A DNA stretch of 64,000 nt, taken from Botryococcus braunii (lineage: Eukaryota > Chlorophyta > Trebouxiophyceae). Of this stretch, positions 5,683 to 54,651 are shown piece by piece. Each line of letters starts with the position of its first letter. Position 1 is the first letter of the stretch. The position numbers were made by a program, and so were the translations under genes. A model generated the notes under the pieces. It did no database searches, had not been told where the DNA came from, and saw nothing but the letters and a program-made list of their open reading frames with translations. The stretch is from positions 1-64,000 of the forward strand of contig MVGU01001123.1 in the NCBI GenBank assembly GCA_002005505.1. The letters run 5' to 3'.

Positions 5683-6392
5683 ACCTTATGGAGGAGGTGA
5701 AGGTGGACCAGGAGGAGGGTGCAGCAGTGGGAAGGCTCCAGCTCCAGGGAAAGCATGCTGAACTGCTGGAGGGGGCTGAGGTCCTCCGGGAAGCGGTCCT
5801 TGAGGCCACATGCCTGCCAGTTGCTGCATTGCTGCCACAACATTTCTCTGCGTCTCTGCGTCCCTTTGCCTCTTGCGACAGTCTCGCCAGAAGTGCCCCT
5901 TTTTATGGCAGTAGTTGCAGGTCCCAAGTACCTCTGCCTTTGGGTCGGTGTCAGCAGGCTGCCTGGGCTGGTTTACCACACTGGCAACAGTGGCAGGCAT
6001 AGTTGCAGCTGGGGCAGGCAGAGCCATCATGACCCTTGCAGGCTGGTCTTCCTCGTCGTTGTATCCAATTGCTTCTGCTGTGGTGGAAACGAGGTCTGCC
6101 AGTTGGTCCAATGGATGGGCGACGGCAGTGGGCAGCAACTCTGGCGTGCTTGCAGCAGTAGGCAGTCCTTGCACAATCTGAGTTGCCACATGTCCGTCCA
6201 CTAGGTCATGTCCATTGTTGTTCAGGCAATTTTTGAGGTTGATCATCCTATTCACATACTGGGATATTGTCTCTCCTTGTCTCATGCCTCTAGACATCTC
6301 CTTCAACTATTCTGCGTTGGCCTGAACATTACTTCCACATGTGAATTTCTTGCAAATGTGGATATAAGCGTCATAAGCAGAGGGTTTGCTAG
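5683..6392 (-). pseudogene. gag: copia A gag, C-terminal part (cut by insertion of P)
   Basis: Minus-strand frame with the UBN2-like gag tail (GETISQYVNRMINLKNCL, HVATQIVQGLP) and one CCHC zinc knuckle (CNYCHKKGHFWRDC), then a Pro-rich segment ending in a stop before protease. The N-terminal half of the same gag continues at 13722 on the other side of element P; the junction carries the GCTAG duplication. The uninterrupted equivalent is in A' at 53075-54112. Confidence 0.92.
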
Positions 6393-7120
6393 TGTTATAA
6401 TAGTGACAGAACATGTTGGTGCCTTTCCCTCAGAAGAGTAATAGTGGCCAGATCATCTTCCATTACCAGAGAGAACAGTTAGTAGAATGAGTAATCAGTG
6501 GCAGAACCCAGGAGTTCTGCCAGACCCGATCTAGACCAATTGCACGTTAATAAGAAAGGATGAGGTAACCGGACACGGTTTGCTCGAAAGGCTATATGCT
6601 CCTGGCTCGAAGGATTGAGGCACTTGATTGGGACATCAAAAGCACTTCGGGTGTTTGCTACTTTACTGTTGCCAGTCAAGTCTCTTCATTCACAGACGAC
6701 ACTGCTTGTTTCTCTACGCACAACAAGAGTGTCGCCGAGCTTAACACCCTCGTGCCGGGTCATACAGGTAAACTGCTGTCAGGACATCAAATGAACATGA
6801 ACAATGGTTTAGGAAGGGTCTAGATAAGGTACAATAGAAAGGTGTAATTGCTTAGCTCATCGGACATTGGTAATGCAGACTATCAGTAACATTGTTGATA
6901 GAGTAGTTTGAATTGCCGAGTGACGAGAGAAAGCAATAAGCATTGTAACACTTGATTGGGACATCAAAAGCACTTCGGGTGTTTGCTACTTTACTGTTGC
7001 CAGTCAAGTCTCTTCATTCACAGACGACACTGCTTGTTTCTCTACGCACAACAAGAGTGTCGCCGGGCTTAACACCCTCGTGCCGGGTCATACAGGGAAC
7101 GCCGAACACAGAAGTTTACA
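6393..7120 (+). repeat. 5' LTR of copia P
   Basis: 728 bp, TGTTATAATAG... to ...GAAGTTTACA. Contains a 148-bp direct duplication (6621-6768 and 6949-7096) separated by 180 bp, an inverted repeat GGCAGAAC/GTTCTGCC (6500-6507/6514-6521), and near its start the motif CTTTCCCTCAGAAGAGTAAT shared with LTRs of A, B and D. The pair LTR is 12989-13716. Confidence 0.96.
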
Positions 7121-7134
7121 GGTTATGGGCCCAC
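7121..7134 (+). promoter_or_regulatory. Primer-binding site of copia P (initiator tRNA-Met anticodon region)
   Basis: GGTTATGGGCCCAC lies directly after the 5' LTR with no spacer. It is complementary to the anticodon stem-loop of initiator tRNA-Met (GGGCCCAUAACC), not to a tRNA 3' end (which would start TGG). This is the half-tRNA priming type known for Drosophila copia and related elements. Confidence 0.85.
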
Positions 7135-7186
7135 CACTTTTCTGCTGAGGCATGAAAAATGTATGACTTGGGCATAGTCGTCTGCG

Positions 7187-7711
7187 ATGGCGCGAAAGAG
7201 ACCAACCGGACGTATGAGCACGGGCGGAAGTAGACCTCCTCCACCTCCACCTCCTCCTCCAACGTATAACGAGCGAAGAAAGGCAGGAGGAGAGAAAGGC
7301 CCACGGACGATAGAAGAACGAGCATTCCTGGTGAAGGACTTCGTCCACGAAGCACACGGACGGGGAGCACTCGCGCCTCCTCAGTGGTTCCGAGAGCGTT
7401 TTCCGATTTATCCAGCCTATAAATTCACTGTCTGGGAAATCTCATTCATCAACGGAGACCCAGGATATTTGACACGAGCAATTTTTGAGAGGTGCTTACA
7501 GCTAACGGGAGGTCCATCGCACGAAGCTTATTGGACGGAGAAAGCCGCCTACGCAGCGATTGAGCTAGCTTTGAGCAGCCTGGGAGACGACTTCATTGAT
7601 CATCTAATTCTCTACGGCGAGGGAGAATTTCACGTAGACGAGTGGGTTACAGAGGACGACAGTGAGGACGAGGACGGAGACTCCCGATTGTCAGAAAGGA
7701 GCGACGACTGA
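7187..7711 (+). CDS. Copia accessory protein ORF1 (histone H3 tail-like N-terminus, PPxY motif, acidic C-terminus)
   Basis: 174-residue frame between PBS and gag, ending 15 bp before the gag ATG. I do not recognise it as a known family. The start is MARKRPTGRMSTGG, resembling the H3 tail (ARTKQTARKSTGG) with Met at the K9 position. A Pro run ends in PPTY (residues 24-27), then comes a block conserved in A and B (ERRKAGGEKGPRTIEERAF, VKDF), a less conserved middle (WEISFINGDPG, AYWTEKAAYAA) and an acidic tail (EDDSEDEDGDS). The same ORF occurs in A (14087-14611), A' (54128-54651) and, shortened, in B (27578-27850), always first after the PBS. Conservation of frame across diverged elements argues it is a real gene. 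Chromatin or ubiquitin-ligase interaction is inference. Confidence 0.85.
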   Translation: MARKRPTGRMSTGGSRPPPPPPPPPTYNERRKAGGEKGPRTIEERAFLVKDFVHEAHGRGALAPPQWFRERFPIYPAYKFTVWEISFINGDPGYLTRAIFERCLQLTGGPSHEAYWTEKAAYAAIELALSSLGDDFIDHLILYGEGEFHVDEWVTEDDSEDEDGDSRLSERSDD

Positions 7712-7726
7712 CAGAGTCCGAACAGC

Positions 7727-8410
7727 ATGAAGAAGAAGGGTACCAGCACCAGCTCAGAATCTAAGTCAGCAGGAGAGGAGTCCACATCAACCCCTACCAG
7801 GGAGCCTTGCACTCCCAGCACCTCCAGAGGGGAAGGAGACGCCCTTCCCACAGTCATTGCCACTCAGGTCAAGGTACATATAAAACTGCTACGTAAGGGC
7901 CAGAACTTTGTGGTGTGGGATAATGCTTTCACTGCGGCCAATAGTGCTAAAGGTTCCTTACCTGCCATTCAGTCTGCCATGCCTGGGACTATCCATAATG
8001 CGGCTGCAATGCTCCTGCTGTATGAGTCTGTGCCAGAGGAATGGTTGGGGGAGCTATCTAGCAAGCCCTCTGCGTATGATGCGTATGTTTTTATATGCAA
8101 GAAATTTGTTGGGGGACACAATCCCCAGGCCAATGCAGACTGGTTGAAGGAGATGGCAAGGGGCATGAAGAGAGGTGAGACTATATCCCAGTATGTATCC
8201 AGGATGATCAACCTGAAGAGCTGCCTGAAACGTAATGGACACGATCTCTTGGATGGTCACGTGGCAACCCAGATAGTGCAGGGACTTCCAGCAGCAGCCA
8301 ACCCACCAGGATTGCTACCCACTGCAGTTGCTCAGCCTTTGGATCAGCTGGCAGACCTAATCTCCACCACAGCAGAGGCCTCAGGGTATGATGATGATGG
8401 GGAGCAATAG
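7727..8410 (+). CDS. gag: Copia P Gag (capsid part), ending in TAG in frame with pol
   Basis: 227 residues starting MKKKGTSTSSESKS. Ser/Thr/Lys-rich N-terminus, then a UBN2-type copia capsid domain (VWDNAFTAANS, YESVPEEWLGEL, GETISQYVSRMINLKSCL, HVATQIVQGLP). It stops at TAG (8408-8410, codon 228) and the frame continues without any other stop to 12970, so gag and pol form one 1747-codon frame apart from this stop. The zinc knuckle lies after the TAG. Related copies A' and B have a sense codon here, so the simplest reading is a point lesion; stop-codon readthrough (CAA TAG G context) is the alternative. Confidence 0.9.
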   Translation: MKKKGTSTSSESKSAGEESTSTPTREPCTPSTSRGEGDALPTVIATQVKVHIKLLRKGQNFVVWDNAFTAANSAKGSLPAIQSAMPGTIHNAAAMLLLYESVPEEWLGELSSKPSAYDAYVFICKKFVGGHNPQANADWLKEMARGMKRGETISQYVSRMINLKSCLKRNGHDLLDGHVATQIVQGLPAAANPPGLLPTAVAQPLDQLADLISTTAEASGYDDDGEQ

Positions 8411-8413
8411 GCA

Positions 8414-12970: not shown

Positions 12971-12988
12971 GGAAAAGGCAAGGGGAAG
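12971..12988 (+). promoter_or_regulatory. Polypurine tract of copia P
   Basis: GGAAAAGGCAAGGGGAAG directly precedes the 3' LTR (TGTTATAATAG at 12989) and directly follows the pol stop codon. The same tract precedes the 3' LTRs of A', B and D. Confidence 0.9.
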
Positions 12989-13716
12989 TGTTATAATAGT
13001 GACAGAACATTTTGGTGCCTTTCCCTCAGAAGAGTAATAGTGGCCAGATCATCTTCCATTACCAGAGAGAACAGTTAGTAGAATGAGTAATCAGTGGCAG
13101 AACCCAGGAGTTCTGCCAGACCCGATCTAGACCAATTGCACGTTAATAAGAAAGGATGAGGTAACCGGACACGGTTTGCTCGAAAGGCTATATGCTCCTG
13201 GCTCGAAGGATTGAGGCACTTGATTGGGACATCAAAAGCACTTCGGGTGTTTGCTACTTTACTGTTGCCAGTCAAGTCTCTTCATTCACAGACGACACTG
13301 CTTGTTTCTCTACGCACAACAAGAGTGTCGCCGGGCTTAACACCCTCGTGCCGGGTCATACAGGTAAACTGCTGTCAGGACATCATATGAACATGAACAA
13401 TGGTTTAGGAAGGGTCTAGATAAGGTACAATAGAAAGGTGTAATTGCTTAGCTCATCGGACATTGGTAATGCAGACTATCAGTAACATTGTTGATAGAGT
13501 AGTTTGAATTGCCGAGTGACGAGAGAAAGCAATAAGCATTGTAACACTTGATTGGGACATCAAAAGCACTTCGGGTGTTTGCTACTTTACTGTTGCCAGT
13601 CAAGTCTCTTCATTCACAGACGACATTGCTTGTTTCTCTACGCACAACAAGAGTGTCGCCGGGCTTAACACCCTCGTGCCGGGTCATACAGGGAACGCCG
13701 AACACAGAAGTTTACA
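12989..13716 (+). repeat. 3' LTR of copia P
   Basis: 728 bp, same length as the 5' LTR; I count about four substitutions (for example ATTTTGG for ATGTTGG near the start and ATCATATG for ATCAAATG). Followed by the GCTAG target duplication. Confidence 0.96.
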
Positions 13717-13721
13717 GCTAG

Positions 13722-14086: not shown

Positions 14087-14611
14087 TTAGTGGTCGCTCC
14101 GGTCTAAAAGTCGGGAGTCTCGGTCTTCGTCCTCGCTGTCTGTCTCTGTAAACCACTCCTCTTCGCAGTGGTTATCGCTGTTTGTCGTCAGGTGCTCCAA
14201 AAAGTCGTCGTCTATGCAGGCCAGTGCATACTCAACAGCTGTGTAGGCAGCTTTCTCCGTCCAGTAAGCTCCCTGGGTGGGGCCTCCCGTCTGCTGCAGG
14301 CACCTTTCAAGTATTGCTCTGGTTACAAACCCTGGATCTCCGTTGATGAACGAGAGCTCCCACGCCGTCACTTTGTAGGCTGGGTAAACTGGAAATCGCT
14401 CCTAGAACCACCCTGAAGGGGTGAGTGCGCCTTGTCCGTATTTCTCGTAGACGAAGTCTTTCACGATAAACGCTCGTTCCTCGATTGTCCTTGGTCCTCT
14501 CTCCCCTCCAGCCCTTCTTCTTTCGTTATAAGATGGTGGTGGAAGTGGTGATCTTCTAATCGGTCCAGTATATCCCGTTGACATTCTCCCGGTTCGCCTC
14601 GTTCGCGCCAT
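14087..14611 (-). pseudogene. copia A accessory ORF1 (H3 tail-like start), broken
   Basis: Begins MARTRRTGRMSTG at 14611. Aligned with the H3 tail ARTKQTARKSTG it keeps A1, R2, T3, T6, R8, S10, T11, G12, with Arg at K4 and Met at K9. PPSY follows at residues 25-28, then conserved RAGGERGPRTIEERAF and VKDF. A TAG just after GWF (about 14402) splits it; the second part (14087-14371) has YWTEKAAYTA and the acidic tail DSEDEDRDS. Its stop is 15 bp upstream of the gag ATG, as in P. Confidence 0.85.
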
Positions 14612-21470: not shown

Positions 21471-22161
21471 TGAAATATTCTGGGCTTGGCGTATCCTGCA
21501 TGGTGGCGGCACGGAGGGTGTTAGACGATGTCCTCCTACTTGTGCGTTGTTAAGTAGGCACGGACATATACAAGTCAAGGACTGGTTAGCAACTGATTGA
21601 TAGACACCCGGAGTGCCACTATAGGTCCAACCAAGTGTTACAATATCTCTCATCTCTCCTAACAAGGTGACGCAGTTCAAACACGCCTAACCTGCTCTCA
21701 CCCAGGTCGTGTTCATTACTTTGTCCGATGAGCTAAACTCAACTCTATATGTCTAACATGTTCTAACAATGTTCATCTGAGTGCTAAATCCAGGAATACA
21801 ATAAGGATTAAGTCACCTGCATGGTGGCGGCACGGAGGGTGTTAGACGATGTCCTCCTACTTGTGCGTTGTTAAGTAGGCACGGACATATACAAGTCAAG
21901 GACTGGTTAGCAACTGATTGATAGACACCCGGAGTGCCACTATAGTTCCAACCAAGTGCCTTCCCTATCCGTGCTTGCCCCATATGCCTCCTTTCTACAA
22001 ACGTGTCTGTAACTTGCGTTATGATAGTCTTCGTTCAAATGCATGTATTGCCTGGCAGAACTCAGGGTTCTGCCTCTCTTTCCTAATTGGTATTGTCTTC
22101 ATACGGAGACTTGCCATTATTACTCCTCTGAGGGAAAGGCATAAAATTAATTAACACAACA
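21471..22161 (-). repeat. 3' LTR of copia B
   Basis: 691 bp, plus-strand ends TGAAATATTC and ACACAACA. Internal 143-bp duplication at 21495-21637 and 21816-21958 (spacer 178 bp); inverted repeat GGCAGAAC/GTTCTGCC at 22054-22074. Confidence 0.95.
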
Positions 22162-22179
22162 CTTCCCCTTGCCTTTACC
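22162..22179 (-). promoter_or_regulatory. Polypurine tract of copia B
   Basis: The minus strand reads GGTAAAGGCAAGGGGAAG directly before the LTR start TGTTGTG, between the pol stop and the LTR. Confidence 0.85.
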
Positions 22180-24294
22180 TCACAGAAACTTGGCCAGTCC
22201 CAGTGAGTTACGATGTCCCAGAAACACTTGTCTAACTAGTGGTTTGGTAAAAATGTCAGCCACATTTCTAGCAGATTGAATGTACTTGAATTCAACCTGC
22301 CCCTTTGCAATAGCTTCACGTGCGAAATGACAGCTAATTGCAATATGCTTTGTGTGTTTGGAGTACACCGGATTCCTCAGGTGGTTTATACACCCTTGGT
22401 TGTCACAATGAATCTTCACTATCCACGGTAACACTCCAATTTCCTCCAGGAAACCTCTCAGCCAATTTGCTTCCTTCACAACAGCACTTGCTGCCATGAA
22501 TTCAGCCTCCACTGTTGAAGTGGCAACAGCAGATTGCTTTTTGCTTCCCCACACTACTGCTCCTCCAAACACAGTGAGGACAAAGCCAGTGGTAGAGAAG
22601 CGATGATCCTGATCACCTCCATAGTCGGCATCCACATAGCCTTCTAGCTCTATCTCCCCCCCTCCAAGAGTTAGAACCAAATCTCGGGTTCCTTTCAGAT
22701 ACTTCAACACACGGATGGCTTCATTCCAATGTGCTGTGGTGGGAGATATGCGATAACGAGACAATACACCTACTGCCTGAGCTATATCGGGACGTGTGGT
22801 GTTGGCTATATACAGAAGAGACCCTACTAACTCACAGTAACGGTGACCTGGAGGTAGTGGACTGCCAGCACCAATGCTGTCGCTCCCATCTCTCGGTGCA
22901 GGCCTTTGGGACATTACGAAATCTTTTGTCATGGGAGTATCAGGTCCCACTGACTCAAGATCCAAGCCAAATTTCTCTACAAGTGCATCGATTTTAGGGA
23001 TGCAACTCAGGGTGATCAGCCCTTTATCTCTATCTCTCATCACTTGACATCCCAAGAAATCCTTCACTTCCCCAAGATCATGGATGGTGAATTCTTTCTT
23101 GAGAAGTCCCTTCACTCTCTCGATTTCTGACATGCCCTTGGAAACTATCAGAAGATCATCAACATAGATCAGCACATAGGACTTTCCTCCATCAGTAGAG
23201 CATCTCACATACACTCCCGCATCACTCTTGCACACCTCATACCCCATGACTTCAAGTTTGTCATTCAGGGTTTTGTGCCAGGCACGTGGAGCCTGCTTCA
23301 GGCCATACAACGCCTTTCTCAATCGGCACACAATATTCTTATCACCATTCTCAAAGCCAGGAGGTTGCGTTACATATACTTCCTCCTCGAGCTCACCATT
23401 CAGAAAGGCGGTCTTAACGTCCACCTGATGAATTTCACAGCCCTCTCTTGCAGCAACAGCAAGCAGAGCTCTTCTAGCTCCATAGCTACTAGTAGGAGCA
23501 AAGACCTCCATCACATCCACTCCAGGGATTTGTCTGCATCCCTGTGCCACTAATCTGGCCTTGAATCTCACAACATTGCCATGTGCATCCATTTTCACTG
23601 AAAATATCCAGTGAACTGGAATAACCTTATGTCCACGAGGTCTCGGAACATACTCCATGACCTCATGAGTATCTAGAGAATTTTGCTCTTCCTGCATAGC
23701 TGCCTTCCAGTATTCCCACTGGGGAGACATCTGTGCTTCTCTCAAATTAGAGGGAACGTGAATTTTCCCAAATCTGACACCTGTGTGCTTTTCCTCTGAA
23801 TTGCCTGATTTTCTCTCACTTTGTCCAGAACCCACTACTCTTCCACTGACACTCGCTGCGTTACACATCACAGGCTCTCCAGTAGAAGTAGAATGCTCTC
23901 TCATAGCACGCTCTCGCTTGGACTCACACTTGGCTTTGCACAAGTTACTCTGCTCATCCCTCACATCATCCTCCCATGCACAGGTACCTCTCGGACAGTC
24001 TTTGTAATTTGGAATCCCTTCACATTGTCCAGACTTCCGATTCACCTCCTCAGACACACTCTGACATGCCTGCAAGAGTTCAGACTCTTCAGGTCTCTCA
24101 CAAGCAACATCGGGATATGGCAGAGTGTCTGCATACTTCCCCTGATTTATGTGATCCACATGCCTCTCAGACCGACTGCATGTCACTGTTGGGAGTGACC
24201 TCACATCTCTGACATCACTCTCCCAGGCACAGGTACCTCTCAGTGAGCACTTGTAATTTGGTCTGTCTCCACAATGTCTGTGCTCCTGATTCAC
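22180..24294 (-). CDS. pol: Copia B pol, C-terminal frame: linker, RT, RNase H
   Basis: 704 residues open from MNQEHRHC. It holds two copies of the linker module (NYKCSLRGTCAWESDVR and NYKDCPRGTCAWEDDVR), a complete RT (HWIFSVKM, VDVKTAFLNGELEEE, YVDDLLIV) and RNase H (YVDADYGGDQDHRF, TVEAEFMAAS, HCDNQGC, NVADIFTK). All catalytic acids are intact. It is really the continuation of the 24321-27581 frame: compared with D, one base is missing near 24310-24320, shifting the frame onto a TGA. The Met at 24294 is therefore not a natural start. Confidence 0.92.
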   Translation of the reverse strand: MNQEHRHCGDRPNYKCSLRGTCAWESDVRDVRSLPTVTCSRSERHVDHINQGKYADTLPYPDVACERPEESELLQACQSVSEEVNRKSGQCEGIPNYKDCPRGTCAWEDDVRDEQSNLCKAKCESKRERAMREHSTSTGEPVMCNAASVSGRVVGSGQSERKSGNSEEKHTGVRFGKIHVPSNLREAQMSPQWEYWKAAMQEEQNSLDTHEVMEYVPRPRGHKVIPVHWIFSVKMDAHGNVVRFKARLVAQGCRQIPGVDVMEVFAPTSSYGARRALLAVAAREGCEIHQVDVKTAFLNGELEEEVYVTQPPGFENGDKNIVCRLRKALYGLKQAPRAWHKTLNDKLEVMGYEVCKSDAGVYVRCSTDGGKSYVLIYVDDLLIVSKGMSEIERVKGLLKKEFTIHDLGEVKDFLGCQVMRDRDKGLITLSCIPKIDALVEKFGLDLESVGPDTPMTKDFVMSQRPAPRDGSDSIGAGSPLPPGHRYCELVGSLLYIANTTRPDIAQAVGVLSRYRISPTTAHWNEAIRVLKYLKGTRDLVLTLGGGEIELEGYVDADYGGDQDHRFSTTGFVLTVFGGAVVWGSKKQSAVATSTVEAEFMAASAVVKEANWLRGFLEEIGVLPWIVKIHCDNQGCINHLRNPVYSKHTKHIAISCHFAREAIAKGQVEFKYIQSARNVADIFTKPLVRQVFLGHRNSLGLAKFL

Positions 24295-24320
24295 CTCCTC
24301 CTCTCGTCCCTTACATGGAG

Positions 24321-27300
24321 TCAGGATGCAGATCCTGTCTCCCGCTCACAATCATGTTTGGCTGGTGCAGAGAAAGCATATGATGCTTCCTCTGACCGGT
24401 GGCTGCCACCACAGTCCCGTCCAGGAGTGCTCTGACTGGACGGGTTGCCAGAAGAACTCTGCATGGTCACATCTCTTACATTTCTCTCAGTCACTGAACA
24501 AGACCCACCCATACTGCTCAGCTCCCCGGGACCATTTGCAGCTTTGCATGTAGCTGCCCCCCTCACTGCACTCACATGCAATTCATGCCCCTCATGTGAA
24601 TCACCCTCTAGCTGCACTTCCCCTGGTCCCTGTGACAGAGAGTCACATTCAGTCAACCCCTCTCGCTCTCTGCTCTCTCCCTTCTCCTGTGGCAGCAGGA
24701 GGTCTTTGGCGGCAGTGCGTTGTTCGTGTCGTTGAGCCCGGGTCAGGCCATCCAATTGGTGGTTGCGGCAATCAGACCTAGTTGGTCTGAGGACCTCCTG
24801 GGCTCGCTCCATCTGCGGTCGAAGGTGGGAGTCCTGTCTCACTCCTCTGGCTAAGTCCTGTACTGCCTCCAGGGTTTGATCCATCTCCACTGGGTCACAC
24901 AGTCTTCTGGATTCAGGCTCGGGCTCAGCCTCACTGGGGGGTCCTGTGACAGGCTGTGTGGGGAGGTTGCTGGAGGCTGGCAGGTACTCAGGCTCACTGT
25001 GTGGGTCATCAAGATCTGTCTCAAGGCTGATGTTGGTTGTGCCAGGGGAGGTGCCGGGAAAGACTGGGGGAGTGTCACTTGCAGAGGGCTCAGGACACAG
25101 AAACTCTGTAGACTGTGTTGAGGAAACGCTCATGCCAACCCGAGAGGCTCCCCTGAGGTGCTCCACGAAAACCACATCTCTGCTCTCCTTCCAGATACCC
25201 CCTCCCACATAGATCCGATAGGCTTTGGAGGAGGCTGAGTAACCAGTAAGCATCCCTGGCACAGTTTTAGGGGAAAACACAGAGCGCTGGACATCAGGAA
25301 TGTGCACAAAGGCCAAGCAACCCCAGGTACGCAGTGGGGTTACATTTGGTTTGTAGCCAAAAAATAATTCTGATGGCGTGCGGTCCCTCCCGGTACTGGG
25401 ACCCATGTTCAGTAGGGTGCATGCAGTTTCCAGGGCCTCCTTCCACAACGTTGGACTGGCAGCTGCAAAAGCCAGAAGAGTCCTGGTACGTTCCTTGAGG
25501 GTGCGATTGGCTCTTTCAGCCGCTCCATTCTGTTGCGGGGTGTAAGGAGCTGAGGTCTCCAATTTAGTCCCCTGGGATGCACAAAATTCTTTGAACGTGG
25601 CATTCAGAAATTCAGTTCCACGGTCACACCGGACACACTTCACTTTGGTTTTCTTCTGGGTCTGCCAGTATAGAATGAGGTCCCTCACAGCAGCACTGAT
25701 GGCATCTTTGGACTTCACAGGCAGGACCGCCTTTAACTGAGATGACTCATCCAAAGCAGTCACCCAGTAACGTTCACCAGTTACTGCAGCAGGAAAAATG
25801 GGGCCCACAGTGTCAATATGTACTCTGTCAAGTGGTTCAACAGCTGGTCTACTGCTTATTCCAAATGGAGGCCGAGACGTCTTTCCCTCAATACATGCTT
25901 CACAGTAGACTGGACAATTGGAGCAGGGACATAGGGATGTATCAAGTCCCGAGACCAGGTCCTCATTGGTTAGGCGCTGCATCCATGTTTCACCTGGATG
26001 TCCCATTCTGCTATGCCAGAGGTATCGTCTGGCACAGTTGTGTGAGTTTTGGGTGGGGGTTTTGGACTTCACAGCAGCTGAAATTCTTCTGTGGTTAACA
26101 CTGGGACTCAGAGCTACAACTTGATGAATATAAAATAGCCCTTTCTCTGCACTGATCCGAGACCTCCAGCTGTTTGGACCACAGACTTCAGTGAACGCTC
26201 CAACATCATCTGTGCGAAAGACTGCCCCATCCCGCAATGCTGCAGATACTGACAGTATGTTTGAGGTTGCAGAAGGAACACACTGAACATGATGTATCCA
26301 CAGGGGAACTCCCACTCGACTGAGGATGCAGACAGAGCCTGATGCTACAATTCCTCCAGTGGCATCTGAAGTGGCCAGATGTAATGGGATGGGTTTGGCA
26401 TGCACAGTTGGATTATGTAGTAGGGTCACATCATTCACCAGATGTACAGATGCTCCACTGTCCACCAGCCAGGATTGCAGAGACGAATTTCTGACAGGAG
26501 TCTTCAGGATGTTGAGGGAAATTATGTATGGCATACCTCCAGGTGGTGGAGGTGGGGGAGCTGGGGGTTGGAACCATGCCGGAAAGGCATCCAGTCCAGG
26601 GTGCGCCAGCTGGGCTGCAGGAGGGTGTGGGCCACCCATATGTGGAGGTCCCTGTGGCCACATTCCCTGCAATTGTTGGACCGCTGCCACTACGTTCCGT
26701 TGGGTCTCCTCGTCCCGCTTCCTCTTTCGACAGTCCCTCCAGTAATGCCCCTTCTTATTGCAGTAGTTGCAGATGCCCTTAGTCTCGGACTTGGCCTCAG
26801 AGACAGTTGGTTGGGCCTGCTGATGGACTGCACTGGCAGCTGGTGGGGTATTGGCTCCACTGGAGCCTTGTCCAAGAGCCAAAACCCTTGGTTGGCGAGG
26901 AGCATATTCATCAAAACCCACTGCAGCTGCTGTGTTGCGCAGAAGTCCAGCCAGCTTCTCCAGGGGTTGTGCTGCAGCAGTTGTGATCATTCCTGGCTCT
27001 TTAGCTGCATCAGGCAAGCCCTGCACAATCTGGGTTGCAACGTGTGCATCCAGTAGAGCATGGTTGTTCCTGTCAAGGCATGCCTTCAGGTTGATCATTC
27101 TGTTGACATATTGCGAAATCGTCTCGTCATGTTTCATTCCCTGGCTCATTTCTTGGAGCCAATCTGCATTGGCCTCGATATTATATCCACCAATAAACTT
27201 TCTGCAGATGAACTCATATGCATCATAAGCAGAGGGCAGATTAGACAGAGGTCCCAGCCATTCCTCTGGGACTGACTCATAAATCAGTAACATTGCGGCT

Positions 27301-27581
27301 GCGTCATGTGCTGTACCAGGCATAGCCTCCAGGATGGCAGGCAAAGACCCTTTTGACTCATTTGCTGCCAAAAATGCATTCTTCCAAACAATAATATTTG
27401 TCCCCCGTTCCTTCAGTTTTATGTGTACCTTGACATTTGTTGGGATAATCTTGGGCAGCTCATCTCCGCTGCCTCTTGAGGTGCTGGGAGTACACGGTTC
27501 TCTGATGGGTGTGGATGAGGCTGGTTCACTGCTTGACGTTGATGCTCCACTAGCTGATGATCCTTTCTTCTTGGAAGTCAT
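24321..27581 (-). CDS. gag-pol: Copia B gag, protease, integrase (pol N-terminal frame)
   Basis: 1086 residues. Starts MTSKKKGSSASGAST; UBN2-like capsid; CCHC knuckle CNYCNKKGHYWRDC; protease WLVDSGASVHLVN; GAG-pre-integrase LWHSRMGHPGETW; integrase HIDTVGPIFPA, RCDRGTEFLNA, YTPQQNGAAERANRT. There is no stop between gag and pol, unlike P. It ends in the linker (CERETGSAS then TGA) because of a 1-nt deletion. The start ATG overlaps the stop of ORF1 as ATGA. Confidence 0.94.
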   Translation of the reverse strand: MTSKKKGSSASGASTSSSEPASSTPIREPCTPSTSRGSGDELPKIIPTNVKVHIKLKERGTNIIVWKNAFLAANESKGSLPAILEAMPGTAHDAAAMLLIYESVPEEWLGPLSNLPSAYDAYEFICRKFIGGYNIEANADWLQEMSQGMKHDETISQYVNRMINLKACLDRNNHALLDAHVATQIVQGLPDAAKEPGMITTAAAQPLEKLAGLLRNTAAAVGFDEYAPRQPRVLALGQGSSGANTPPAASAVHQQAQPTVSEAKSETKGICNYCNKKGHYWRDCRKRKRDEETQRNVVAAVQQLQGMWPQGPPHMGGPHPPAAQLAHPGLDAFPAWFQPPAPPPPPPGGMPYIISLNILKTPVRNSSLQSWLVDSGASVHLVNDVTLLHNPTVHAKPIPLHLATSDATGGIVASGSVCILSRVGVPLWIHHVQCVPSATSNILSVSAALRDGAVFRTDDVGAFTEVCGPNSWRSRISAEKGLFYIHQVVALSPSVNHRRISAAVKSKTPTQNSHNCARRYLWHSRMGHPGETWMQRLTNEDLVSGLDTSLCPCSNCPVYCEACIEGKTSRPPFGISSRPAVEPLDRVHIDTVGPIFPAAVTGERYWVTALDESSQLKAVLPVKSKDAISAAVRDLILYWQTQKKTKVKCVRCDRGTEFLNATFKEFCASQGTKLETSAPYTPQQNGAAERANRTLKERTRTLLAFAAASPTLWKEALETACTLLNMGPSTGRDRTPSELFFGYKPNVTPLRTWGCLAFVHIPDVQRSVFSPKTVPGMLTGYSASSKAYRIYVGGGIWKESRDVVFVEHLRGASRVGMSVSSTQSTEFLCPEPSASDTPPVFPGTSPGTTNISLETDLDDPHSEPEYLPASSNLPTQPVTGPPSEAEPEPESRRLCDPVEMDQTLEAVQDLARGVRQDSHLRPQMERAQEVLRPTRSDCRNHQLDGLTRAQRHEQRTAAKDLLLPQEKGESREREGLTECDSLSQGPGEVQLEGDSHEGHELHVSAVRGAATCKAANGPGELSSMGGSCSVTERNVRDVTMQSSSGNPSSQSTPGRDCGGSHRSEEASYAFSAPAKHDCERETGSAS

Positions 27582-27850
27582 AATTCCCCAGTTGTCTTAT
27601 AACTCCAGTACTCGCAAGGTAGCAGCAAGATCTTACTTCTGAACCAGGTGGGTTGAGCTAACGGACAGCCAACGTGAAGGTGAAAGATGTAGTCTTTGAC
27701 GATAAAGGCTCTCTCGTCAGGATTGCGGTCTCCACGTTGTCCTCCTTCTCTGATTAGTTCGTTGTATGACGGAGGTCCTGATCTCAAGCGCGCTGGAACG
27801 TTGAGGTTGGTGGTCTTCCTGGCTGTTTGCTTTGTCCGCTTCTTCGCCAT
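27578..27850 (-). CDS. Copia B accessory ORF1, short form with H3 tail-like N-terminus
   Basis: 90 residues starting MAKKRTKQTARKTT; residues 5-12 (RTKQTARK) are identical to histone H3 residues 2-9. PPSY is at residues 26-29, followed by NELIREGGQRGDRNPDERAF and IVKDY, which match ORF1 of P and A. The C-terminal half (WEISFINGDPG..., acidic tail) is missing and the frame ends GEL, with its TGA overlapping the gag ATG. The gene is either truncated by deletion or a short natural form. Function unknown; see P ORF1. Confidence 0.82.
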   Translation of the reverse strand: MAKKRTKQTARKTTNLNVPARLRSGPPSYNELIREGGQRGDRNPDERAFIVKDYIFHLHVGCPLAQPTWFRSKILLLPCEYWSYKTTGEL

Positions 27851-27904
27851 TCACAGTCTAGTGAGCTCCGATTTAGGCGCCACCCACTCTCAGCATCCGA
27901 GCCC

Positions 27905-27918
27905 GTGGGCCCATAACC
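27905..27918 (-). promoter_or_regulatory. Primer-binding site of copia B
   Basis: The minus strand reads GGTTATGGGCCCAC immediately after the 5' LTR, identical to that of P: initiator tRNA-Met anticodon-loop complement. Confidence 0.86.
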
Positions 27919-28609
27919 TGAAATATTCTGGGCTTGGCGTATCCTGCATGGTGGCGGCACGGAGGGTGTTAGACGATGTCCTCCTACTTGTGCGTTGTTA
28001 AGTAGGCACGGACATATACAAGTCAAGGACTGGTTAGCAACTGATTGATAGACACCCGGAGTGCCACTATAGTTCCAACCAAGTGTTACAATATCTCTCA
28101 TCTCTCCTAACAAGGTGACGCAGTTCAAACACGCCTAACCTGCTCTCACCCAGGTCGTGTTCATTACTTTGTCCGATGAGCTAAACTCAACTCTATATGT
28201 CTAACATGTTCTAACAATGTTCATCTGAGTGCTAAATCCAGGAATACAATAAGGATTAAGTCACCTGCATGGTGGCGGCACGGAGGGTGTTAGACGATGT
28301 CCTCCTACTTGTGCGTTGTTAAGTAGGCACGGACATATACAAGTCAAGGACTGGTTAGCAACTGATTGATAGACACCCGGAGTGCCACTATAGTTCCAAC
28401 CAAGTGCCTTCCCTATCCGTGCTTGCCCCATATGCCTCCTTTCTACAAACGTGTCTGTAACTTGCGTTATGATAGTCTTCGTTCAAATGCATGTATTGCC
28501 TGGCAGAACTCAGGGTTCTGCCTCTCTTTCCTAATTGGTATTGTCTTCATACGGAGACTTGCCATTATTACTCCTCTGAGGGAAAGGCATAAAATTAATT
28601 AACACAACA
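27919..28609 (-). repeat. 5' LTR of copia B
   Basis: 691 bp, near-identical to 21471-22161, including the internal duplication and inverted repeat. Followed on the plus strand by CACCT (28610-28614). Confidence 0.95.
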
Positions 28610-29211
28610 CACCTTAGTCAAGGAGCCGCAGCATACCGGTCGACCACCGAAGCAACACCAACACGTACAAGTAAGTGCCAATATTTCCAAGGAGATTTAT
28701 CATTTGCCACAGTCATATCCTAGACTGAGGTGAAGCAACAGCACCTAGATCAAGCCGCACGTTCAGTGCCACGCACCCAAGCCGTAGGGAACAATCGTCC
28801 CAAGCCCTCGAGCCAAGGAAGAATAGATACATCCTTGAATAGCCTTGTAAGCTCGCCAAATACAGTTTTAGTAATAACAGAACCTTGAAAGACGCAATTG
28901 TTGAAGTCCACACGAACCGCGACCACACCACTAGGTAGCCGCGCGCCTCACCGACTAAAATAGTCCGACCGACCCGAACAAGCCGGCGAAAGCCGAATCG
29001 GCAACCCGGAGCCTTTCAGACCGTAATATCGACATGTCATGACACCGTAACAGCTAGGTCTCAGGGCCGTAATCCCTGGGTGGCGATCCTGTCCAGACGT
29101 ACCTTTAACAGTAATTGACCGCAGCAGCACAACCCAGATTCAAAACCCTGATAAAATTCAGCCATTTAAACGCCAAAAAATTTGGATACCGTTGGGCACG
29201 GGTACCCTATA

Positions 29212-30018: not shown

Positions 30019-33000
30019 GTGGCAGTACCGGCAATATCTGACATTAATTTGTGTCGTGGACACACGAGCGTAATCTCTCATAGTGTGTTAGGCCATCTAG
30101 AGCACAAGGCCTTATTTGATCAAGAAACTAGAATGGCAGACGTACAAACTCCTGTTCGTTTAGAATTTTTCTATGGAAAGCCCACAGAGGACCCTTTTCA
30201 GTGGCTTGAGTCTTTTGAGTTGTTCATTGAGATCAACCATGTTGTGGGCGATCGAGTTTTAAGATTTGTCAAACACGCAATGCGTGAAGAAGCATATACC
30301 TGGTTTCGTGCAAATCAAGATGACTTTAATGACTGGGATGAATGCAAGGAGGCTTTTCTCGAAAGATTTGGCCTCGACAAGGACACCCTTATGTTGAAAT
30401 TAGACACATGTGCACAACAATCTAATGAGACTGTTAGGAGTTATGCTGACAGATTCAGGAAAATAGTGGGTTATTTGCAGAAGTCTCTGCCACCCAGAAT
30501 GATAACACAACTATTCGTAAAAGGCCTAGTACCACATCTACGTGAGAGGGTTCAGATGACCTACCCCGGCAAAGGAGCGTTAGCCGACATTATAAAATTG
30601 GCAGCTGATTATGAACAAACATTCGGACACGCGCCTTTAGGGGGCATGTATTCAAGCCAGAACATACAAGTGCCGGTGCGCGAGAGGATGGATCAATGGA
30701 ATCGCCGCGCCGATGACAATGTGGATCACCGTGCACCACGCCCGCCGCCGCAGCAAAATCAGAGGGAGAACAATAGAGACAACAGAAATTGGCAGCGCCA
30801 GCGAGACTTTCCGGAGCGACGCAACCAGCAGCAACCAGCAGTACCGCCTAGACAGATTGCTCCAATCAACCCACCAAGGGAGGCACCTGCGCCACCCCCA
30901 ATTAATGACATTGACACCCTCACAAGGGAGATGGAGAGACTACGAATTCAAATCGCAGAACTACAGCGACAGCCCATAGCCAACTTCACCAAGTTTGTGG
31001 AGCATGAACAGCAACCGGAGCAACCGCCCCCGGAGCACGCCACAATAATGTATGATGGATTTACGGATCCTTTTCCCGTGTATCCTATATATGCCACTAA
31101 GAGGCCAGCAGAAAGTCCACCTGAAGCAAACCAACTGCTGCTTCGGCGCCGCCCCAACAATCTGAAGGACACCACAGTTGACCCAAGAAACATACCAAGG
31201 CCTGCCGCCCCTCGGCCTGCACCAGCTCAGAGACAACCAGTAGAACCTACAACACCAGCAGCACCCCCGCCTGCACCTGCAAGGGAGCCAGCAGCGCGTC
31301 CACATGTGGACCTTGGAGGATTGCCTCCCCTACCTAATGCCGCACGTCCCGCTGCCTACAGGAGACCAGTGGCCATCGCACCAGCAACGGCAGAACCCAT
31401 TCAGCAGATTAAAGGGCTTCCCATGAAGCTCACCGTACAAACCTACCTGAACCACATCAGCGAGGAGGAGTTCAACAAGTCAATCAAGGAGCTAAAGGAG
31501 TCCCGTGAGGAATTCCTGCGTACCAGACAGCGAGACCCGCCGTCGGCGAGAGCTACCAACACGGAAGTTATCTACGTTTCTGGAGGGACCACCTCAACTA
31601 GCGAGACTGACAACGAGGAGTCACCTTCAGCGCGAGTCCCACAATCAAACCTGCAAAGGAATCCGGTGAACACTACGGTTGCCACCGTACCCATAATCAT
31701 TAATGACTTAGTATTTGAGGATGGCATCATTGATACTGGTGCCACAAACACAATGATTTCACAATCAGCCGCACGACAGTTAAATTTAATTGATCAGATT
31801 GAGCCTTCACGTCTTAGATACTCGTGTGCAGATGGGAAAATGTCCACTCCTTGGGGCATTATTCGCAAGCTCCCTGTAGGAGTTGAGGGCTTAGTAATAC
31901 CAATTGACGTATTTGTTAGTGGAGCGACTTCTTATGATGTACTTCTTGGAACAGATTGGCTTACTCAGGCTCACGCCGAGATAAGTTTCGCAAAACAAGA
32001 AATGTCCTTTCGTATTGAACCACAAATTATGGGGAGAGTTCCCATCACTGTCATGCCTGCCAGTAAAAGCAGCAACCGATATTGCGTCGCGAGAGTCCCC
32101 GGAATAGACTTCGAAGGTCCCGCGGGTCACCCCGCCGAGCCAAGGGTACCGAGGGTACCCGGCCTACCGAACGAAATTATAAACATTGAGGACGATCTGT
32201 CAGAAGAATCCCAGGAAGAAACAGACCTTTATTCCGGGAGTGAGGGAGAAATTCCTAGTACTGAACCCTCCGATGAGGAGGAAGAGTATTCGGAGGAGCA
32301 TGAGGCTTTCTCTTCCGAAAGTGAGATTGAGATTTACAATGCGACAGTAAGCAACGAGGGTCGAGAGCTTGAGTTAGCAGCGCATCCCTACATGACTGAA
32401 GATTGGATGTTAAAAACTAGCATTTTTAGAGAAATTGAAACACAGAGGGGTCCTTTTGACCTCGACGCATGTTGTGATCTCCAAGGTCACAACTCTCAGT
32501 TACCTTTGTATTGGACCGCTGAGGACGATTGTTTACAGCAGAGCTGGACCCATTTGAGTATATATTGCAACCCACGTTTTTCGATAATTGACAGAGTTGT
32601 GAATCACTGTCTCGCGTGTTTCACCAGTAGTCCCTTTACCACTAGTGCAGTACTTGTGCTACCATGGTGGCCTTCCGCCCCTTGGTTTCCTACAGTAATG
32701 GAGGAATTTGAGATCATCAAACAATACCCTCCTGGTGTGCAGCTTTTCACAGCCCCTGGAGAGGACCCTGCAGGTCCGCGACGTCGTTCTGGCCCTACCA
32801 GATGGCCTGTCATTATTGTTCGTGTCCCCACCTCCCTTAGGAAGGAAGATCCTGGTATGCAGAAGTTGAGAGAGATAATAAATACTGAAAAGATGAAACA
32901 GGACCCCGATCCCATGTTAAAAATCACCACCGGGATGCGAAAATTGGGTCCTATGAGAGAACAAGAGATTGAGAGATCAGTACAGGAGTACAAGGATGTA

Positions 33001-34824
33001 TTTACCCCAGGTATAGTACAAGAGAGAACCACCTTAATGCACCACCGCATAGACACTGGGGATGCGGTCCCCATCAAAACACGCCCTTATCGCTTGTCCC
33101 GTTCGGAGGATCAGGTGATCGAGGAAGAAGTTCATAAACTGCTCGAGGCTGGAGTGATAGTGCCTTCCAGCTCTCCTTGGTCTAGTTCGCCTGTGTTAGT
33201 AGGCAAGCCGGATGGCTCTGTCCGGTTTTGTATTGACTACCGCCCATTAAACGCGGTTACCAGACGTGACAACTACCCCATGCCTAGGATAGACGAGACC
33301 CTAGATTCCTTAGGCCAGGGGGTGGAATACTTGAGTAAGCTTGATTGCAAGTCAGCCTTTTGGTTGATACCAATAGCCCCAGAGGACCGTGCAAAGACCG
33401 CTTCTACTACCAAAGAAGGTTTATTCGAGTTCGTATCAATGCCGTTCGGCTTGCGTAATGCCCCGGCTACGCTTCAGAGATTTGTTAACACTCTGTTGCA
33501 AGACTTAATAGGAAAGTGTTGTGTCATTTATCTAGATGACTGTTTGATATACAGCCGCACATTTGAGGACCACCTCACACATCTGAAATTAGTGCTTGAA
33601 CGCTTCCGTGCGGTGGGCTTTAGAGCCAACCCAGCCAAGTGTGAGTTATGTTGCAGTGAAGTGTTGTACTTAGGATACATTATTACGCCCCAAGGCATAA
33701 AGCCCAACCCTTCCAAGGTTGAGGCAGTTCTCAACGCAGCACCGCCGACGAACGTTACCGAAGTCAGGTCCTTTTTGGGACTTGCAAACTACTACAGGAG
33801 ATTTCTGCACAACATGGCCGCCATATCTGCCCCTTTGACGCGGCTCACGAGAAAGGGGGTTGTTTTCAACTGGACCACTGACTGCCAAGCCGCCTTCGAA
33901 GCCATCAAGGCCATGCTAGTGGATGCGCCGCTTCTACGATACCCCGACTTCAGCAAGAAATTCACGCTATATACTGATTGGCAGCCCGGAGCCGCCGCCG
34001 CTATTCTGGGCCAGGAGCTCGAGGACGGTGACCATGTGATCGCATACGCCAGCAAAACTTTACAAGGAGCAGAGCTCAACTACTCTCCAACGGATGGGGA
34101 GCTGCTTGCCATAGTGTGGGCCGTGAAGCTATTCCGCCCCTACCTCTATGGAGTTCAATTTACTATAGTAACAGACCACAAAGCTTTGAAGTGGTTACTC
34201 ACCACACGCAATTTGTCCGGCAAGCTAGCACGATACGCCATCGAACTACAAGAATATGACTTTGACATCCAGCACCGCTCGGGGACCTTGCATGGGAATG
34301 TGGACTGCCTTTCTCGTCTACGCCTACTGCCGCCCCCTGGAGTTGACTACAGTGAAGAGCCGCCGCCGCCGCCGCTAGAAGAAGAAAATATTGAGGAGAG
34401 CCGCATGCACTGCTGCTACACCATGACCTTGGACAAGGAAAATATGCCGCCCGCCAAAGACACATTGGACCAGGACCAGCCTTACCAGCCACTCGCGTAC
34501 GAGACCACTCAGCGCGGAGAGATAATAACTTCACCAACCCTACGCCGCATGACGACCCCGAAGGATGATGCACCCCCTTCCAGGGACTACCTTCCGGAGA
34601 TGAGAATTGAATCAACACCGATTTATGACCTGCCACCGCCTACAGAGACTTTGTCTGGCCGTTCTGCCGCCCTGGCCAGCCAAGAACCTATGACTACACC
34701 GCGTACGCGTTTTGACAGCCCGCCGCTTACGGAAGATGTACCGTGCCAAGTATGCACGGGAAGAGATGATGAGGAGACCATGCTACTATGTGACCTCTGC
34801 AACCACGGATACCACATCGACTGA
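30019..34824 (+). CDS. gag-pol: Gypsy G1 Gag-Pol: gag, protease, Dam-like domain, RT, RNase H, PHD finger (ends at TGA)
   Basis: 1601 codons; the likelier start is MADVQTPVRLEFFYGK at 30133. Domains: retrotransposon gag (about 45-200), Arg/Pro/Gln-rich tail without a CCHC knuckle, protease IIDTGATNTM (Asp 572), an acidic Ser/Glu linker, a Dam-like domain (about 790-937: GPFDLDACCD at 812-821, NPRF at 851-854, LPWWPSAPWFP), RT (IDYRPLNAV, FVSMPFGLRNAPATLQRF, YLDD 1171-1174), RNase H (TLYTDWQPGAA where TDAS is usual, DGELLA, TDHKALKWLL), a Pro-rich linker, then a PHD finger (CQVC, LLCDLCNHGYH) cut by TGA exactly where the next zinc-binding Cys is expected. The frame continues after the stop. 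Confidence 0.9.
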   Translation: MAVPAISDINLCRGHTSVISHSVLGHLEHKALFDQETRMADVQTPVRLEFFYGKPTEDPFQWLESFELFIEINHVVGDRVLRFVKHAMREEAYTWFRANQDDFNDWDECKEAFLERFGLDKDTLMLKLDTCAQQSNETVRSYADRFRKIVGYLQKSLPPRMITQLFVKGLVPHLRERVQMTYPGKGALADIIKLAADYEQTFGHAPLGGMYSSQNIQVPVRERMDQWNRRADDNVDHRAPRPPPQQNQRENNRDNRNWQRQRDFPERRNQQQPAVPPRQIAPINPPREAPAPPPINDIDTLTREMERLRIQIAELQRQPIANFTKFVEHEQQPEQPPPEHATIMYDGFTDPFPVYPIYATKRPAESPPEANQLLLRRRPNNLKDTTVDPRNIPRPAAPRPAPAQRQPVEPTTPAAPPPAPAREPAARPHVDLGGLPPLPNAARPAAYRRPVAIAPATAEPIQQIKGLPMKLTVQTYLNHISEEEFNKSIKELKESREEFLRTRQRDPPSARATNTEVIYVSGGTTSTSETDNEESPSARVPQSNLQRNPVNTTVATVPIIINDLVFEDGIIDTGATNTMISQSAARQLNLIDQIEPSRLRYSCADGKMSTPWGIIRKLPVGVEGLVIPIDVFVSGATSYDVLLGTDWLTQAHAEISFAKQEMSFRIEPQIMGRVPITVMPASKSSNRYCVARVPGIDFEGPAGHPAEPRVPRVPGLPNEIINIEDDLSEESQEETDLYSGSEGEIPSTEPSDEEEEYSEEHEAFSSESEIEIYNATVSNEGRELELAAHPYMTEDWMLKTSIFREIETQRGPFDLDACCDLQGHNSQLPLYWTAEDDCLQQSWTHLSIYCNPRFSIIDRVVNHCLACFTSSPFTTSAVLVLPWWPSAPWFPTVMEEFEIIKQYPPGVQLFTAPGEDPAGPRRRSGPTRWPVIIVRVPTSLRKEDPGMQKLREIINTEKMKQDPDPMLKITTGMRKLGPMREQEIERSVQEYKDVFTPGIVQERTTLMHHRIDTGDAVPIKTRPYRLSRSEDQVIEEEVHKLLEAGVIVPSSSPWSSSPVLVGKPDGSVRFCIDYRPLNAVTRRDNYPMPRIDETLDSLGQGVEYLSKLDCKSAFWLIPIAPEDRAKTASTTKEGLFEFVSMPFGLRNAPATLQRFVNTLLQDLIGKCCVIYLDDCLIYSRTFEDHLTHLKLVLERFRAVGFRANPAKCELCCSEVLYLGYIITPQGIKPNPSKVEAVLNAAPPTNVTEVRSFLGLANYYRRFLHNMAAISAPLTRLTRKGVVFNWTTDCQAAFEAIKAMLVDAPLLRYPDFSKKFTLYTDWQPGAAAAILGQELEDGDHVIAYASKTLQGAELNYSPTDGELLAIVWAVKLFRPYLYGVQFTIVTDHKALKWLLTTRNLSGKLARYAIELQEYDFDIQHRSGTLHGNVDCLSRLRLLPPPGVDYSEEPPPPPLEEENIEESRMHCCYTMTLDKENMPPAKDTLDQDQPYQPLAYETTQRGEIITSPTLRRMTTPKDDAPPSRDYLPEMRIESTPIYDLPPPTETLSGRSAALASQEPMTTPRTRFDSPPLTEDVPCQVCTGRDDEETMLLCDLCNHGYHID

Positions 34825-54127: not shown

Positions 54128-54651
54128 TTAGTGGTCGCTCCGGTCTAAAAGTCGGGAGTCTCGGTCTTCGTCCTCGCTGTCTGCCTCTGTAAACCACTCC
54201 TCTTCGCAGTGGTTATCGCTGTTTGTCGTCAGGTGCTCCAAAAAGTCGTCGTCTATGCAGGCCAGTGCATACTCAACAGCTGTGTAGGCAGCTTTCTCCG
54301 TCCAGTAAGCTCCCTGGGTGGGGCCTCCCGTCTGCTGCAGGCACCTTTCAAGTATTGCTCTGGTTACAAACCCTGGATCTCCGTTGATGAACGAGAGCTC
54401 CCACGCCGTCACTTTGTAGGCTGGGTAAACTGGAAATCGCTCCTAGAACCACCCTGAAGGAGTGAGTGCGCCTTGTCCGTATTTCTCGTAGACGAAGTCT
54501 TCACGATAGACGCTCGTTCCTCGATTGTCCTTGGTCCTCTCTCCCCTCCAGCCCTTCTTCTTTCGTTATAAGATGGTGGTGGAAGTGGTGATCTTCTAAT
54601 CGGTCCAGTATATCCCGTTGACATTCTCCCGGTTCGCCTCGTTCGCGCCAT
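54128..54651 (-). pseudogene. copia A' accessory ORF1 (H3 tail-like start)
   Basis: Same N-terminus as A (MARTRRTGRMSTG, PPSY, ERRRAGGERGPRTIEERA) but with a 1-nt deletion near 54500 that changes frame after IVK, so the first frame ends at 54409. The C-terminal part (WELSFINGDPG, YWTEKAAYTA, DSEDEDRDS) is open as 54128-54412. The stop at 14402 in A is also present here (TAG near 54442). Confidence 0.83.

Follow-up and report, generated by a model that had tools for sequence, protein, structure and literature searches.

Very few transposon proteins are known that counter histone-based silencing, and the systems closest to the one described here come from several directions. VANC is sequence-specific and belongs to the VANDAL elements of Arabidopsis, and TrAP comes from geminiviruses, i.e. 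from plant DNA viruses; to our knowledge VANC carries no H3 tail and TrAP no H3-like tail. VANC is described as a transposon-encoded anti-silencing protein (PMC10398659, PMC5735166) and TrAP as a parasite protein inhibiting the H3K9 methyltransferase SUVH4/KYP (PMC4606454), and in these respects both resemble the role that we propose for ORF1, an accessory protein encoded upstream of gag by a large group of Botryococcus braunii copia elements. Short H3-like motifs are reported for viral mimics of the H3 tail, e.g. influenza NS1 (ARSK), SARS-CoV-2 ORF8 (ARKS) and adenovirus protein VII (AKKRS) (PMC10208167), the claim for ORF8 being disputed (PMC10833455). The viral motifs have 4-5 residues, whereas in ORF1 the match to H3 reaches 8 identical residues, or 12 of 17 when aligned, and persists across diverged families of elements; moreover ORF1 comes from an LTR retrotransposon hosted by an alga, and one of its branches has Met at the place of Lys9. 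Met at Lys9 of an H3-like tail is shared with the H3K9M member of the K-to-M histone mutants, which is reported to trap an H3K9 methyltransferase (PMC5030085). These mutants are mutated histones, whereas ORF1, their proposed counterpart, is encoded by a transposon and shows no sign of a histone fold. Additional ORFs besides gag-pol are described in plant LTR retrotransposons, where, unlike ORF1, they are most frequent between pol and the 3' LTR (PMC7264820), and the main text of that review uses the words "histone" and "chromatin" 0 times. Among the best-ranked matches in the open-access literature, outside which most subscription journals lie, we found no retrotransposon H3-tail mimic, no natural K9M mimic and no Botryococcus ORF1, which is not proof of absence. 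Histone mimicry, K-to-M inhibition and transposon anti-silencing have each been described before; what appears to be new is to find them together in a retrotransposon, in natural versions with Lys9 and with Met9. Our analysis of the sequences suggests, at roughly even odds (a probability of about 0.5), that ORF1 is an H3-tail decoy against H3K9 methylation, and that one of its two clades is a natural K9M trap.

The window, i.e. the whole analysed stretch of 64,000 nucleotides, carries ORF1 in three elements, called B, P and A. B (21471-28610) and P (6391-13717) are Ty1/copia LTR retrotransposons, with an RVT_2 domain, an integrase upstream of it and flanking LTRs. The Pfam domains of P pol, rve (350-449) upstream of RVT_2 (1023-1267), follow the copia order. 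P appears to be nested in element A, and B is young since its LTRs differ at one position. P ORF1 has four protein matches, three of them EukProt models with the label Botrbrau1 (Botryococcus braunii). The features are the following.

27578..27850, minus strand: B ORF1, 90 aa, internally deleted form (from ORF translation and genome matches)
27809..27832, minus strand: KQTARKTT core of B ORF1, residues 7-14, matching H3 4-11 with S10T
27815-27838, minus strand: RTKQTARK of B ORF1, residues 5-12, matching H3 residues 2-9
27764..27775, minus strand: PPSY (PPxY) motif of B ORF1, residues 26-29, with pN 0 in nine K-clade sequences
27637..27638, minus strand: junction left by the 283-bp deletion inside B ORF1, compared with the full-length L115
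24321..27581, minus strand: B gag-pol ORF, whose ATG overlaps the ORF1 stop as ATGA
27919..28610, minus strand: 5' LTR of element B, 692 bp, differing from the 3' LTR at 1 of 692 positions (99.86%)
21471..22162, minus strand: 3' LTR of element B
7187..7711, plus strand: P ORF1, 174 aa, M clade, MARKRPTGRMSTGG, with its tail at 7187-7228
7727..8410, plus strand: P gag ORF, starting 15 nt past the ORF1 stop codon
8420..12970, plus strand: P pol ORF with integrase and RVT_2 domains
6391..7121, plus strand: 5' LTR of element P, 731 bp, 99.45% identical to the 3' LTR
12987..13717, plus strand: 3' LTR of element P
14093..14611, minus strand: A ORF1, M clade, MARTRRTGRMSTG, with one internal TAG
54134..54651, minus strand: another A ORF1 copy, divided between two frames

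The reading frame of B is broken on the minus strand at 23904-24321, between the integrase part, which ends at 24321, and the RT part, which starts at 23904. In the B LTR (27919-28610) a stretch of 143 bp is directly repeated (27943-28085 and 28264-28406), and repeats of similar spacing, 328 and 330 bp, are found in the P LTR and in the region upstream of A ORF1. GGTTATGGGCCCA stands just inside the 5' LTR in both B (~27890-27918) and P (7122-7140), and we take it to be a possible primer site for the anticodon arm of tRNA-Met.

We searched the genome (176 Mb, 989 contigs) with several ORF1 queries, which gave ~800 candidates each; the best 150 were scored, and the divergent end is hence a sample. 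The best 150 of the 809 candidates for the B ORF1 query are all 100% identical over 90 aa, and B is a young, internally deleted form, present in at least 150 copies with the same protein sequence. In B 283 bp are gone after Trp-Phe-Arg, which removed the rest of the domain and kept the tail; full-length ORF1 has ~161-175 aa across families, and the B-type relative (P0009, identical with L115) has 166 aa. We rejected a spliced intron as the source of this gap, the missing stretch having no GT-AG ends. The gag ATG overlaps the ORF1 stop in B or comes ~13 to 60 nt later, in varying frames, in the families examined. This variation points to reinitiation behind ORF1, rather than fusion, as the probable way in which gag is translated; a read-through fusion of ORF1 and gag as a general rule was rejected on the same grounds. 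A protein homologue search with the 90-aa B ORF1 gave no match, and a scan of viral contigs and genome contigs with the ORF1 family alignment found no relative. The identity between P and the B type is 44% in ORF1, 71% in gag, 59% from the gag end to the variable spacer, 78.5% in the IN core and 87% in RT-RNaseH. ORF1 is the least conserved of the parts compared, which makes so tightly held a tail core notable.

B ORF1 starts with MAKKRTKQTARKTT, and its residues 5-12 are identical to H3 residues 2-9, as the original prediction had read; the H3-like starts that it had seen in P and A are there as well, with Met at the place of H3 Lys9. Among the families sampled, L090 is the nearest to H3, with 12 of 17 residues identical from Met1 (MGRTKQSGRMSTGGKRP vs MARTKQTARKSTGGKAP). 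To estimate chance, the first 40 residues were shuffled with composition kept, 3000 times per family. The z score is 3.9-9.3 for 11 families of this genome, whose match score was reached in 0-8 of the 3000 shuffles, and for five more distant relatives it is 5.6 (P0014), 3.2 (P0012), 2.3 (P0010), 1.1 (P0007) and -0.4 (P0015). The place of K9 is taken by Arg in P0010 and P0012, the motif is scrambled in P0007 and P0008, and there is none in P0015, whose start is basic and has no H3 likeness.

A search of the tails against PDB sequences put H3 on top for B (25 aa, E 0.085), L090 (21 aa, E 0.0072) and P (25 aa, E 0.83). The first 25 aa of B and P gag gave no match up to E 10 in the same kind of search, nor did the N-terminus of P0014. 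A profile of 32 ORF1 proteins also matched histone H3 first (positions 1-20 on 1-20, E 0.099), followed by Cse4 (0.28), three proline-tRNA ligases (~0.7) and two more H3 entries (0.8 and 0.99). The single E-values are modest since there are only ~20 residues, and the argument relies on their concordance together with the evidence of selection. Taken together, the sequences make H3-tail mimicry by ORF1 well supported: the match goes beyond chance and is under selection, most clearly around Lys9. The host genome has canonical H3 tails, and a CenH3-like gene (L084, C224:266259-266432) starts with MARTKQTARKSVGGNRP, a nearly canonical H3 tail. We rejected recent copying from a host H3 gene, as the codons differ among families (no formal test).

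The ORF1 proteins were aligned and a tree was built from the body alone (PPxY motif onward) with 31 of the 32 rows, the short P0013 being left out. Two groups, K and M, each take one side of a branch, with support 96/94 and 95/94, and P0014 and P0015 form long branches whose placement is unsure. B of the window belongs to the K clade, and P and A belong to the M clade. For counting tails, loci were picked from the match lists for divergence and the rows were classed by the linker, not by the tail, giving 111 rows, i.e. 47 K and 64 M, of which one M row, L077, is masked by Ns. Since near-copies are frequent among the rows, and some places are present both as window and as locus, we counted distinct tails, 12 in the K clade and 28 in the M clade (two and three of them, respectively, from copies without a first Met).

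The core of the K clade is KQTARKTT, i.e. H3 4-11 with S10T, in 10 distinct tails, KQTARKIT in one and KQTAGKTT in one. KQTA (with the matches to K4 and A7), K9 and T11 are found in 12/12 and R8 in 11/12. An M-clade tail reads, for example, MGRTKQSGRMSTGGK against MARTKQTARKSTGGK in H3. Lys9 is replaced by Met in 27 of the 28 distinct M tails and by Ile in one, and the H3 residues kept are R2 (27), T3 (23), Q5 (20), R8 (27), S10 (15), T11 (21) and G12 (27). Lys4 has become Arg in 23/28 and is Lys in 5/28, Ala7 has become Gly in 27/28, and residue 1 is Ala or Gly in 27/28; position 10 holds Ser or Arg in 18/28 and Gly, Ala or Leu in the other 10. In having Met or another hydrophobic residue in place of the target lysine and retaining R8, the M clade has the sequence feature of a K-to-M inhibitor. 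The original prediction was to fall if most relatives lacked the H3-like start, and among the copies sampled the opposite is seen, with R2 in 27/28 M tails and KQTA, K9 and T11 in every K tail. Its placing of the match at the extreme N-terminus does not always hold: R2 is preceded by 2-3 extra residues in the K clade and by 16 in P0014, and an in-frame AUG lies 8 codons upstream in some M-clade copies. Each clade retains H3 residues that the other has lost, which fits a common ancestor with an even more H3-like tail, and we infer such an ancestor.

The KQTARKTT codon pattern occurs at 359 places in the genome (reversed control 0) and the R-T-[KR]-x-[ST]-G-R-M codon pattern at 190 (reversed control 1); these are codon-pattern places, the first 100 of each being listed, and not every one is confirmed as ORF1. 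With such numbers a single-copy accident was rejected. A Lys codon in the M-clade context, searched as CGA-AMN-ARR-NNN-ANN-GGN-MGN, which differs somewhat from the Met pattern compared (190 places), occurs at 0 places (reversed control 4).

Selection was examined in 9 K sequences (L103, a shorter second ORF1 in its locus, was removed) and 17 M sequences, i.e. 16 loci and P of the window, L075 and L092 of the 18 chosen loci being absent from the set. In the K clade KQTARKTT has pN 0.031 and pS 0.722, a ratio of 0.043 compared with 0.321 behind PPxY, and all such ratios are rough since pS is near saturation. The core pN ranks 5 lowest of 145 windows, in agreement with the conservation that had been predicted. 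The uncharged Q, T, A and T of this core are as well held as K/R, the flanking basic residues vary, and R8 is written as AGA, CGC, CGT, AGG and CGG. For the M clade the predicted conservation is borne out in part: GRM has a pN/pS of 0.071 and residues 3-10 of 0.172 (rank 17 of 152 windows), but the whole tail (residues 2-13) has 0.295, near the 0.324 of the rest, with 0.596 in residues 11-13 and 0.706 in the linker after them. The slow evolution is concentrated around Lys9; the outer tail of the M clade does not share in it.

AlphaFold2 with 32 sequences predicts a helical body at residues 31-130 (block-mean pLDDT ~89-96) and a disordered tail in the first 20 residues (pLDDT ~50); an earlier model from 12 sequences had pLDDT 45 and was not used. 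By this prediction the tail would be exposed and disordered. A Pfam search of the 32 members up to E 0.1 gave no histone match and nothing above the cut-off, the PDB-sequence matches of ORF1 to H3 cover the tail end only, and no histone fold was found behind the tail in the sequence searches. The body of the 32-protein set has no convincing PDB-sequence relative and no Pfam family. A PPxY motif lies directly behind the H3-like tail in 29 of the 31 tree rows, with VPxY in P0007 and P0008; it sits at the edge of the predicted helix, and its pN is 0 in the nine K-clade sequences. The predicted layout of ORF1 is a disordered H3-tail mimic, a short PPxY linker and a small helical domain with an acidic end. 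We speculate that PPxY may be a WW-domain site or a ubiquitin-ligase hook.

The best-conserved part across the clades is H3 4-11 and not the free N-terminus, which points to proteins gripping the Lys9 region. In the presence of SAM, the Clr4 and G9a SET domains are reported to bind K9M more strongly than the wild type, with clear density for H3 residues 3-12 in the K9M-SET structure, and chromodomains are reported not to bind K9M (PMC5030085). From the conservation around Lys9 and this preference for SET domains we propose a decoy in the K clade and a trap in the M clade. The ORF1 tail would enter the catalytic groove of a host H3K9 methyltransferase of SUVH/SU(VAR)3-9 type, the class that silences repeats in green algae, in place of histone H3. 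A K-clade tail would serve as a substrate decoy. An M-clade tail, in which Met or Ile makes methylation at that place impossible, would bind as a dead-end, SAM-dependent K-to-M trap. With either tail H3K9 methylation of the element copies would fall, and transcription would be favoured. According to PMC8303541, SUV39H2 reads R8, S10 and T11, and SUV39H1 prefers R, K, S or T behind the lysine; the Ser or Arg at position 10 of 18/28 M tails fits these preferences, and the Gly, Ala or Leu of the other 10/28 does not.

SET-domain exons are present in the host genome. One SET fragment (L122) has the H3K9-specific SUVH6 as its best PDB match (E 5e-11), with an MLL-type H3K4 enzyme nearly level (1.7e-10), and the other fragments look H3K4/H3K36-like by eye only. 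A search for the Pre-SET family gave no match in the host or in the controls. In Chlamydomonas the SUVH homologue SET3p is reported to carry out H3K9 monomethylation and to be needed for silencing repeated transgenes (PMC8566409, PMC3225300). From these comparisons we infer the targeted enzyme, the binding and the effect on silencing. A fuller picture, in which a natural counterpart of the H3K9M oncohistone traps the host methyltransferase, a sister lineage keeps Lys9 as a decoy and PPxY is a possible hook, falls somewhat short of even odds.

The original prediction had offered two functions for ORF1, as bait for the silencing machinery and as a means of targeting integration through chromatin readers. 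The bait is the better half; we consider reader recruitment unlikely, though it is the strongest of the alternatives. A methylated K-clade tail would let HP1-like chromodomains carry ORF1 and the preintegration complex to heterochromatin. Methylated H3K9 mimics are described as binding HP1 or MPP8, and host mimics in G9a and ATF7IP as recruiting chromodomain proteins (PMC9768651), and the K clade keeps K4, A7 and K9 in all its distinct tails and R8 in all but one. However, the M clade has Met or Ile for K9 in 28/28 and mostly Arg for K4, so that the methyl-lysine marks for chromodomains or H3K4me readers cannot form there. A methyl-lysine reader is hence unlikely for this clade, and K9M itself is reportedly not bound by chromodomains. 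The tail might instead engage readers or erasers of the unmodified H3 N-terminus (PHD, WD40 or LSD1-type) or sequester a K9 demethylase, which is slightly less probable still. The R2 kept in 27/28 M tails speaks for this, and with Ala or Gly at residue 1 the removal of Met could expose an ARTK- or GRTK-like end; but the residues before R2 in the K clade and P0014 and the upstream AUG of some M copies speak against it, and trapping a K9 demethylase would harm the element.

The tail might also be simply basic, serving nuclear import or RNA binding, with an H3 likeness that arose once in an ancestor by coincidence and was later kept for a different reason; this is about as doubtful as the unmodified-H3 readers. 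All tails are basic, as is the start of P0015 without any H3 likeness, the match could descend from a single event, and the outer M tail is not slower than the rest (0.295 in residues 2-13). However, the pN/pS of 0.043 in the K clade includes the uncharged Q, T, A and T while the basic flanks vary, shuffles of such basic starts seldom reach the score (0-8 of 3000 in 11 families), and K and M each keep H3 residues lost in the other. Finally, Met10 of the M clade might be kept as an alternative start codon and not as a substitute of Lys9. The gene model of P0002 does begin at Met10 and its matching copy L071 has no first Met, but L064 has ATC (Ile) there, and R8, upstream of Met10, is held through synonymous codon changes, which indicates that the upstream part is translated; this explanation is improbable.

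As a decoy and K9M trap, the ORF1 tail is a compact candidate of ~15 residues in two natural versions for a transposon-encoded counter to histone-based silencing. The proposal predicts SAM-dependent inhibition of a SUVH-type enzyme by the tail. If it is true, the K-to-M trick would have evolved without any link to tumours, and the peptides would be inhibitors of natural origin that give a way to influence how green algae silence transgenes.

The window also contains a gypsy-type polyprotein (30133-34824, plus strand). Its protease and RT are separated by a Dam-like N6-adenine DNA methyltransferase domain (PF05869, E 3.4e-11), and a PHD finger starts at its end (PF00628, E 2.4e-4, under Pfam's cut-off). 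Chromodomain-coding stretches are abundant genome-wide, the best 150 of 1236 candidates having been scored, and many of them lie in open frames of >1000 codons that are chromo-gypsy-like in look.
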